Source: an uncultured Methanobrevibacter sp.
GTDB taxonomy: Archaea; Methanobacteriota; Methanobacteria; Methanobacteriales; Methanobacteriaceae
Length of the DNA stretch: 36,597 nucleotides
Assembly: GCF_905235195.1 (NCBI RefSeq)
Contig: NZ_CAJOKH010000003.1
Coordinates: 1-36,597, forward strand
Direction of reading: 5' to 3'
Shown here: one piece after another, positions 1 to 21,340 of the stretch
How positions within the stretch are numbered: the first letter of the stretch is position 1
Layout: each line of letters begins with the position of its first letter
Program-made: the position numbers and the translations under genes
The notes under the pieces: generated by a model
The model's input: the letters and a program-made list of their open reading frames with translations, nothing else
What the model was told of the DNA's origin: nothing
The model's database searches: none

Positions 1-250
1 TGATAAAATAAACAAATTTATAAGAAAATGATTATTTATTAGATTTATTTAAATTCTAATAATTTTCTAATTCTAGAAAAATAGAAATAGATTATTTTAA
101 AAATTTAATTTCATTTAGTTTACAACAATTTATAAAAAGGATAATAAATAAAAGTATAATAAATTGTATATTTATAAAAAATTGGTTAATATTATAATAA
201 TTCAATTATTTATGTTTAAAATAAATACTTATTAAAAAATAGGTGTCAAA

Positions 251-1216
251 ATGAGTATAATAATTGCATATATTGGAAAAAAAGGCTGTGTAATGGCTAG
301 TGACAAAAGAAGAATTGCATATTTTGGAAATAAAAATGAAAGAGAAGAATTAGAATCTAAATTATATTCTGGAAATATACGCAATGATGAAGAATTATAT
401 AAAGAAGCTGCAAAAAGAGACCTTACCTTAAAAATTACAGATGATACTCATAAAATTAAAAAAATCGGTACAGCAGTTATGGGAGAAGTTTCAACTAAAA
501 CCACAATGGAAGTTAAAAGAAAACGTATTTATGGAACTACTAATGGTTATCAAATAATTGAACTTGTAGGATCTACATTAAAAAGTAAAGACAAAGGTGC
601 AAGTGGAATTATTATTTTTGGTAACAAAATTGCAAAATCTATAGCAAATCCTCTTGTTAAAGAAAGATGGAAATCTAATATTAGTCTTAAATATATGGGA
701 GATATTTTTGAAGAGATTATTAAAGAAATTGCTGATAAAACACCTTCTGTTGGAAAAGAAGTTGATGTTCTAATTGGAAAAGATGACAGTTTAACACCAA
801 CAACAGCTCAAGAATATCTTGATAAAACAGAAGATAGGGACAAAAGACTTTTAGAAAAATATCGAAATCAATTAACAGAGGAACTTGATAAAGCTAATGA
901 GAGTATGGAAATTACTTCAAAACTCATAAATGAAGGCAATATTGGTCGTATTTCAAATATCAATGGTAAAATTCTAAATGTTGTTCTGGAAAATAATGTA
1001 GAAGCTTATGATACAAACTGGAAATTATTATCTAAACCAAATGAAGAAGTGATAATGTTACTTAATAAAGATAATGATGGAAACATTATAGATGAAGATA
1101 ATGTTTCAAACTTTGTAAGTATAGATGATAAAGTAATTATAAAGGATGGAAACTTATGTATTGAAAAAAATAATATTTCCCTTAATTGTAATATTGTTTT
1201 ATGTAATACAAAATAA
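251..1216 (+). CDS. Connectase-like Ntn-hydrolase (DUF2121 family)
   Basis: A 321-aa protein whose N-terminus reads like a proteasome beta subunit: after Met1 removal Ser becomes residue 1 and an Asp falls at position 17 in an ASDKRR motif, the spacing of Thr1/Asp17 in Ntn-hydrolases. It matches, from memory, the methanogen DUF2121/COG4079 family, which includes connectase, a monomeric proteasome homologue reported to ligate proteins at a KDPGA motif of methyltransferase subunit MtrA. The Ntn-like part spans roughly residues 1-190; residues 190-321 form an extra C-terminal domain. The start is supported by AGGTG 5 nt upstream of ATG, and it leaves Ser exposed as the N-terminal nucleophile. 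Ser instead of Thr is noteworthy. I could not place the equivalent of Lys33 by eye. A possible TATA box lies near 165-178. Family assignment is fairly sure; ligase activity is inferred. Confidence 0.75.
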   Translation: MSIIIAYIGKKGCVMASDKRRIAYFGNKNEREELESKLYSGNIRNDEELYKEAAKRDLTLKITDDTHKIKKIGTAVMGEVSTKTTMEVKRKRIYGTTNGYQIIELVGSTLKSKDKGASGIIIFGNKIAKSIANPLVKERWKSNISLKYMGDIFEEIIKEIADKTPSVGKEVDVLIGKDDSLTPTTAQEYLDKTEDRDKRLLEKYRNQLTEELDKANESMEITSKLINEGNIGRISNINGKILNVVLENNVEAYDTNWKLLSKPNEEVIMLLNKDNDGNIIDEDNVSNFVSIDDKVIIKDGNLCIEKNNISLNCNIVLCNTK

Positions 1217-1301
1217 TTAAAAAGCAGCTGAAATGCAAAATAATAAATTTATATTAATGAATTTTATACACTTTTAAAATTGAAAATTAAATGTGAGAGA
1301 A

Positions 1302-2150
1302 ATGAAAATTACATTTTTAGGGACTGGAGGCGGAAGATTTGCCACGATTAGTCAAAAAAGGATGAGTGGCGGATTTAGAATAGATAATATTCATGGTTTT
1401 AACCTTCATGTAGATCCAGGTCCAGGTGCACTTATTAGAAGTCTCCAATACAAACTTAATCCAAGTCAAATTAATGGAATTTTTATTTCCCACTGCCACA
1501 CAGACCATTATAATGATGCAGAAATATTAATTGAATCAATGACTAAAGGAATGATAAGAAATTATGGTCATATAATTGGAAGTAAAAGTGTTATGGAAGG
1601 AGTAGACCAATGGGGACCTAGTATTTCCAATTATCACAAAACTAATTCTAAAACTCACATAATAACGCCTGATGAGGAAATTGATTTTGATAAGTTTAAA
1701 ATAAAAGGAACCCGAACAATTCATGGAGACCCTTGTGGAGTTGGTTTTCAAATTGATACTGGACATACAAAAATATCTTATACTTCAGACACCAAATATT
1801 TTGAAGAACTTAGCAGGTACCATAAAGATGCAGATATTTTAATTGGAAGTGTTTTACGCCCAGGAGATAAAGGACTTAAAGGACATATGTGTTGTCAGGA
1901 TTTTGAAAATCTGATTAAAGAAATAAAACCTAAACTTGCAATTATGACCCATTTTGGTTATAAATTTCTAAAAGAAAATCCGATTAGAGCAGCAAAAAAA
2001 ATTAAATGGGATACGGGAATTAGAACACTTGCTGCAACAGATGGAATGTGTATAAATATTGATTATAATGATCCTAGAAAATCATATGTTAAAACTTTAA
2101 AAGCTAGAGAAATTCCTGGAAAATTCAGCGATGAAATTTTTAAAATTTAA
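1302..2150 (+). CDS. Metallo-beta-lactamase-fold hydrolase
   Basis: A 282-aa MBL-fold protein. It shows the N-terminal strand with FLGTGGG, the metal motif HCHTDH (about residues 64-69), a later histidine in the TRTIHGDP stretch, an aspartate in the SYTSDTKYF stretch, and a C-terminal THFG histidine, so the set of two-metal ligands looks complete. The family includes RNase Z-like, UlaG-like and other hydrolases; the substrate cannot be named. The open frame extends to a GTG at 1293, but that GTG is the start of a GTGAGAG sequence that fits better as the ribosome binding site of the ATG at 1302, so I chose the ATG. It lies 85 nt downstream of the connectase-like gene in the same direction; co-transcription is possible but the gap is AT-rich and may hold its own promoter. 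Confidence 0.8.
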   Translation: MKITFLGTGGGRFATISQKRMSGGFRIDNIHGFNLHVDPGPGALIRSLQYKLNPSQINGIFISHCHTDHYNDAEILIESMTKGMIRNYGHIIGSKSVMEGVDQWGPSISNYHKTNSKTHIITPDEEIDFDKFKIKGTRTIHGDPCGVGFQIDTGHTKISYTSDTKYFEELSRYHKDADILIGSVLRPGDKGLKGHMCCQDFENLIKEIKPKLAIMTHFGYKFLKENPIRAAKKIKWDTGIRTLAATDGMCINIDYNDPRKSYVKTLKAREIPGKFSDEIFKI

Positions 2151-20377: not shown

Positions 20378-21340
20378 TTAAACACCAAATGATTTTTTAA
20401 GTAATTCTACATTTACATATCCTTCTTTGTAAACATTACCCGTAGTTAAATCATTTATAACTACTTCTGCAGGTGCAAACATTCCTTTATCAATTTGATA
20501 GAAATCGAAACCAGCAGCTTTAAAAGTATCATAGAATGGTTCCCCATAACCTTCAGCAGCAGATGATGGAACTTCTTTAGCTAAAGCTTCAATGTCATCT
20601 CCTTCTTCAGATTCAAGATAATAATAAGTTCTTCCACCAAATAATACAGCATCATTAGTTCTTCCCATAGCTTTTAATCCATCAGGAGTTACAGGTGCAA
20701 TAGGTGCAATACCTGCAGCATGTTTAACTTTAGTAACATCGAATTTAAGGAATTCTAACATTTTATAAGTACCGTTTTCTACAACTCTTCCAGAAATTTG
20801 AATAGATCCAACAAGAGAAGAAGTAGGAGCAACGAGTAAGTAAACATTTGCAACATCAACCTTACATTCATCTGCAACATATTGTGCTACATCTTCACCA
20901 GGTATAACATCAGCTTCTAAAGTTAAAATTGCTAAATCAGCATCATCTTTATAACCGATTTCCTCATAAGTTTCAGCAGGATTTAAGGATAAAGCTCTTG
21001 CAGGTCCAGAACCTAATGCGAAGAAATCTCCAACACCAACAGACCAGCCTGCTTCTTGTGAACCTAATGTTGCAATAGCAGGATAATCAGTTTTTATTTT
21101 AACAGAAGGAAGTGCGAATTTTTCAGATAAATCTCCAGGAATTGAAATCCCTACATCAGCAAGGCCACCAAGACAGATTTTAGTATATAATTCACCTGCT
21201 TTAAAACTACCTTTAACATTGACACCACAATCAATTACAGTGGCACCATTTGATAATTTTGAAATAGCAACATTAATTTCATCTGCCTTTTTAATCATTT
21301 CATCTACAACTTTTTTTGCTTCTACGTTTACACTAACCAT
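20378..21340 (-). CDS. mch: Methenyl-H4MPT cyclohydrolase
   Basis: A 320-aa cytosolic enzyme of the hydrogenotrophic methanogenesis pathway; it converts formyl- to methenyl-tetrahydromethanopterin. The sequence is typical over its whole length: VIDCGVNVKGSFKAG, CLGGLADVGIS, TLGSQEAGWSV, the GSGPARALS loop and the C-terminal APAEVVINDLTTG. It is well expressed in methanogens, and the codon use with few rare triplets fits. The start has GAGG 8 nt before ATG. A perfect 16-bp palindrome sits directly upstream of this ribosome binding site. Confidence 0.97.
   Translation of the reverse strand: MVSVNVEAKKVVDEMIKKADEINVAISKLSNGATVIDCGVNVKGSFKAGELYTKICLGGLADVGISIPGDLSEKFALPSVKIKTDYPAIATLGSQEAGWSVGVGDFFALGSGPARALSLNPAETYEEIGYKDDADLAILTLEADVIPGEDVAQYVADECKVDVANVYLLVAPTSSLVGSIQISGRVVENGTYKMLEFLKFDVTKVKHAAGIAPIAPVTPDGLKAMGRTNDAVLFGGRTYYYLESEEGDDIEALAKEVPSSAAEGYGEPFYDTFKAAGFDFYQIDKGMFAPAEVVINDLTTGNVYKEGYVNVELLKKSFGV

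Follow-up and report, generated by a model that had tools for sequence, protein, structure and literature searches.

Positions 251–1216 of the window, the whole 36,597-nucleotide stretch of DNA analysed here, hold an open reading frame that a sequence-only reading took for a connectase-like protein with Ser at the nucleophile position. This raises two questions, namely whether the frame encodes a true connectase and whether its Ser sets it apart from other members of the family. The features on which the analysis rests are as follows.

241–245, plus strand: likely ribosome-binding site AGGTG, 5 bases before the ATG (read from the sequence)
251–1216, plus strand: connectase gene, 321 aa, ATG start (Pfam PF09894, E 1.8e-66; PF25274, E 6.5e-19)
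251–793, plus strand: catalytic (MJ0548_N) domain, residues 1–181 (Pfam)
857–1204, plus strand: C-terminal (MJ0548_C) domain, residues 203–318 (Pfam)
254–256, plus strand: Ser codon, mature residue 1, nucleophile position (across the aligned connectases of 160 genomes, Ser in 124, Thr in 36, no other residue)
302–304, plus strand: Asp17 in mature numbering, ORF residue 18 (invariant, 160/160)
452–454, plus strand: Lys67 in mature numbering (invariant, 160/160)

Both Pfam matches bear out the assignment to connectase, and we are highly confident that the frame encodes a connectase of the ordinary kind from a Methanobrevibacter-type methanogen. The MJ0548_N domain scored 223.9 bits against a curated cut-off of 26.8, and the Pfam domains cover nearly the full length of the protein. 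Strong PDB matches by sequence were all four distinct connectase chain sequences and nothing else (8wkd/8jtu, 2.8e-29; 6zvz, 4e-29). The close relatives from the named genome collection were six, all of them Methanobrevibacter records and 50–74% identical. When the protein was examined for the two-helix insertion between strands S3 and S4, residues 3–106 gave a gap-free alignment with the solved chain 8wkd. The AlphaFold model built from seven sequences was poor (mean pLDDT 59.6). The five positions that are invariant among the connectases of 160 genomes (D17, R19, E34, K67 and G123) are all present in the window protein. Searches of the host genome, 96% complete, gave a single connectase and a single MtrA.

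The N-terminus, which begins MSIIIAYIGKKGCVMASDKRR, lies where the sequence-only reading had placed it. No usual start codon (ATG, GTG or TTG) was present in the five open codons upstream (K-I-G-V-K), and its Met-Ser lines up with the identical first two residues of MJ0548, which makes an earlier start very unlikely. The initiator Met is presumably removed, following the methionine aminopeptidase rule; this leaves Ser at residue 1 and Asp at residue 17, the Ntn-type layout that had been proposed. GGTG-type sequences occur at a similar spacing in many but not all related connectase loci. Across the 160 genomes, the window locus included, the codon directly 5′ of the Ser or Thr was ATG in 136, GTG in 7, TTG in 7, ATT in 6 and CTG in 4 cases, and for the connectases preceded by ATT or CTG another start codon may be used. 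All six connectases of genus g4 (L164, L165, L170, L179, L181, L184) have ATT directly before Ser1. This suggests that translation begins at a rare AUU codon and leaves Ser1 exposed; alternatively, it would start at an in-frame GTG three codons earlier, which would make Ser1 internal.

Downstream of the connectase gene, in the same orientation, lies a second gene.

1293–2150, plus strand: MBL-fold metallohydrolase, downstream neighbour (PF12706, 7.9e-23)

Of the 69 genomes in the relatives set that have connectase, 64 showed a metallohydrolase close downstream on the same strand. These span several families and include G091 and G113, the two f12 members of the set; only G024, G032, G034, G044 and G104 departed from the pattern. 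In these 64 genomes the best metallohydrolase match starts 334–959 bases beyond the point where the N-domain match of connectase ends, a spacing that leaves room for the C-terminal domain and possibly, locus by locus, for a small intervening gene. No metallohydrolase neighbour was detected at E 1e-4 in the loci examined from f25, from f69 and from the phylum of G111, where mostly 1.2–1.6 kb of downstream sequence was searched. The metallohydrolase does not depend on connectase, since it is present in all 14 connectase-less genomes of genus g3. Genome G062 contains, at L185 (G062:C1:161571-162757) and G062:C1:160799-161586, a second, partial connectase match with two MBL-fold fragments beside it; the connectase–hydrolase pair seems to have been duplicated as a whole and the copy to have decayed. 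Of 19 other ORFs of the window that were scanned, 18 matched one or more Pfam families at E 0.001; for the most part these are families of metabolic enzymes or tRNA synthetases. These matches include the following.

20378–21340: methenyl-H4MPT cyclohydrolase (Pfam scan of window ORFs)

Connectase is distributed unevenly. Within f30, 19 genomes with a full anchored MtrA contain it and 36 do not (for example G123). It was absent from both f40 genomes examined (G129, G139) and likewise from many other genomes of the f40 phylum. Connectase presence was also considered as a simple marker of lifestyle, and this was dropped because the gene is absent from G129 and G139 too, which, like many other connectase-less genomes of that phylum, we take to be hydrogenotrophic. 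We claim no priority for these distribution data.

The sequence-only reading had further named an N-terminus elsewhere, or an MtrA without a KDPGA-like motif, as findings that would speak against a connectase. The only MtrA found in the host genome has EKDPGAFEEEAMIIEV between its head and its membrane helix, reading ...SKVKECVEKDPGAFEEEAMIIEVSDDG..., after which come a linker and a single hydrophobic stretch, and thus carries KDPGA in the expected linker. With the N-terminus confirmed and KDPGA in the MtrA, neither finding was made. Motif and place are those described for connectase substrates in PMC10154401.

Presence of the motif turned out to be a weak and non-diagnostic test. [K/R]DPGA occurs in all 142 connectase-positive genomes (126 KDPGA, 16 RDPGA) and persists in 82 of the 99 connectase-negative genomes (61 KDPGA, 21 RDPGA), and we therefore rejected KDPGA as proof of a working connectase–MtrA pair. 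These counts refer to 241 of 254 tabulated genomes: 13 were set aside for want of a full anchored copy, a fragment in G105 was not tabulated, and genomes with two anchored MtrA copies were scored by the better copy. For the phylum of G111 they include 141 of the 237 MtrA-bearing genomes, hand-picked across families with and without connectase and hence not a random sample. Some connectase-negative genomes are drafts from which the gene may be missing (G063, 82% complete; G069, 90%). Four f1 genomes (G009, G011, G063 and G069) gave no connectase match and kept KDPGA; they also gave no match to the neighbouring hydrolase, so that an assembly gap is as likely as a loss of connectase.

Every one of the 17 genomes without [K/R]DPGA is connectase-negative, and no other motif was seen in the 170 MtrA copies of connectase-positive genomes (one genome's copy being counted twice). 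In genus g3 of f1, in which 14 of 14 genomes lack connectase, the Lys of KDPGA is lost from 13 of 13 MtrA proteins (NDPGA in 8, and EDPEV, EDPGC, NDPGC, NNPGA and NNPGP once each; L068–L080). KDPDA occurs in three of seven genomes of g54 (f30) and RDPDA in one of two genomes of g48 (G111, f30), all connectase-negative, and of the two MtrA copies in the connectase-negative G506 (f54) one carries NDPGA. A tie between motif loss and connectase absence is suggestive. Degraded motifs are confined to a handful of lineages and represent few independent events, so the link is weak after allowing for descent. Genus g3, with connectase absent and the MtrA Lys lost, offers a natural comparison for the physiological role of the enzyme. 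In genus g41 (L115, L361–L365, L370) a short membrane ORF beside MtrA, which we take to be probably MtrF, carries ENPGA or DNPGA aligned to KDPGA.

The persistence of KDPGA in genomes without connectase indicates that the coupling between motif and enzyme is not a tight one, and it leaves a small chance that the window connectase acts on another protein besides, or in place of, MtrA. Anchorless MtrA paralogues with KDPGA in related genomes point in the same direction. The host genome, however, yielded one MtrA-family match, and full loss of the motif is confined to connectase-negative genomes. We prefer MtrA as the partner: the window protein would be active, with MtrA as its substrate in the host cell.

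Anchorless MtrA paralogues numbered 28 in 25 genomes (among the Methanobacteria loci fetched; L120–L147 and others), a set in which the match of G083 contains a stop codon and G073, G079 and G082 are represented without their second copies. Their motifs were KDPGA in 18, KDSGA in 3 and HDSGA in 3 cases, and HDAGA, RDPGA, KDTGA or QDCGA in the others. In G047, G054, G057 and G060 the anchorless protein is the sole whole MtrA copy. It is conceivable, if rather unlikely, that connectase trades cobamide-bearing MtrA heads between such a soluble paralogue and the membrane-anchored MtrA. If so, loading or repair of a head could take place in the cytosol, and the head would then be spliced onto the anchor. 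A search of the window's own genome found no anchorless paralogue, and there exchange would thus be possible among MtrA copies only. The physiological purpose may be repair, assembly or exchange of MtrA.

We then turn to residue 1. Throughout the aligned connectases of 160 genomes it is Ser in 124, Thr in 36 and never another residue. Ser occupies the position in 65 of 65 connectases of the class-level group of the window (f1–f4) and in MJ0548, so that the idea of Ser1 as an oddity of the family was rejected and the special standing given to it by the sequence-only reading is lost: Ser is the commoner of the two forms. Besides the 65 genomes of f1–f4, the alignment comprises 30 from the class of G104, 5 of f12 and 60 from the phylum of G111, together 160 genomes out of the 167 in which a connectase match exceeded the curated cut-off. 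Left out were G024 (a fragment without a hit) and G352, G445, G487, G514, G529 and G534 (not fetched), and second copies and fragments (G133, G062, G016) and the sub-threshold match of G306 were not counted either. Thr1 was found in 5 of 5 connectases of f12, 10 of 10 of f35, 14 of 15 of g106, 6 of 12 of g187 and 1 of 3 of f52. On a quick tree built without residue 1, the distribution requires a minimum of seven changes between Ser and Thr; 52 of the 157 inner branches of this tree are weak, several of them inside g187, and its root was not inferred. Judged from alignment and tree, Ser1 and Thr1 are both natural connectase nucleophiles that have been interchanged repeatedly.

Genus g187 (L313–L319, L321, L322, L325, L333, L335) has six Ser and six Thr connectases, and in genus g106 a single Ser form, L206, faces fourteen Thr forms. 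These genera provide close natural Ser/Thr pairs for asking whether Ser alters the rate or the reversibility of ligation, a question that bears on connectase as a tool for joining proteins. As a single gene, the window connectase matters little.

The chemistry has been described for the enzyme of M. mazei, which has Thr1 (PMC10154401). According to PMC10154401 and PMC11745163, that enzyme attacks an Asp–Pro bond, its N-terminal amino group then becomes amide-bonded to the Asp, and the tail beginning with PGA is released, all steps being reversible. Ser1 could in principle carry out ligation of this type.

This would not hold for an inactive or nearly inactive Ser-type connectase kept to bind or regulate MtrA, a reading that we consider very unlikely for the window protein. 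In its favour, the M. jannaschii protein (MjCET) is called an 'inactive' paralogue or analog in PMC11745163. MJ0548 of M. jannaschii is a Ser form, and 'inactive' may refer either to the Ser form or to the crystallised variant. The 2021 discovery paper of connectase reportedly found activity for the M. jannaschii connectase. Across the 160 genomes, residue 1 is exclusively Ser or Thr, a start-type codon stands directly before it in nearly all cases, and D17, R19, E34 and K67 are invariant, as expected if catalysis by Ser forms is under selection. That the catalytic positions do not vary among Ser forms speaks against a general inactivity of these forms, and an active Ser-type ligase remains our preferred reading of the window protein.

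That the protein is instead a proteasome-like hydrolase, using Ser1 to cut proteins rather than to join them, is hardly credible: it shares the proteasome-type Ntn layout and gave a weak match to Pfam Proteasome PF00227 (13.9 bits, E 0.042, below the cut-off of 22.4, and over residues 130–174 only), but connectase was by far the best Pfam family, the strong PDB matches were connectase chains only, no proteasome chain was among the matches when the PDB was searched with a seven-sequence profile, and the host genome has a KDPGA-bearing MtrA.

Compared with known systems, the window gene is a routine further member of a known family in its Ser1 form. With the proteasome beta subunit and other Ntn hydrolases it shares the layout of an N-terminal nucleophile plus Asp17, both of which the beta subunit possesses. 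Lys67 is probably the counterpart of the residue that we take to be Lys33 of the proteasome, moved by the two inserted helices. The contrast that had been drawn with the Thr of proteasome beta subunits is misleading, since Ser and Thr are both natural states of connectase and Thr is found in M. mazei. PMC8665760 places connectase among the proteasome homologues and describes it, unlike the proteasome, as a ligase that is monomeric, carries two inserted helices and lacks H1/H2.

The window protein resembles the M. mazei connectase (PMC10154401) and the 8JTU/8WKD chain in its catalytic domain, the region of D17 and the KDPGA chemistry, and differs from both in having Ser1 where they have Thr1. 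The crystallised 8JTU/8WKD chain has 192 residues and hence lacks the C-terminal domain. Its source is given as Methanococcus maripaludis in PMC11745163. Despite this naming, the N-terminus of the chain is nearly identical to g106 loci (L194, L196), and the MtrA linkers of g106 resemble the M. mazei peptide that was used in PMC11745163.

Finally, the window protein shares with MJ0548 of Methanocaldococcus jannaschii (PDB 6ZVZ, 6ZW0) the Met-Ser start, a match of the catalytic domain (E 4e-29 over residues 1–240) and a seven-sequence profile match over positions 1–303 of 307. The two proteins differ in that their sequences have diverged. The window protein has an extra short stretch in the C-terminal domain, at about residues 276–287, where 154–155 of the 160 aligned sequences have a gap.
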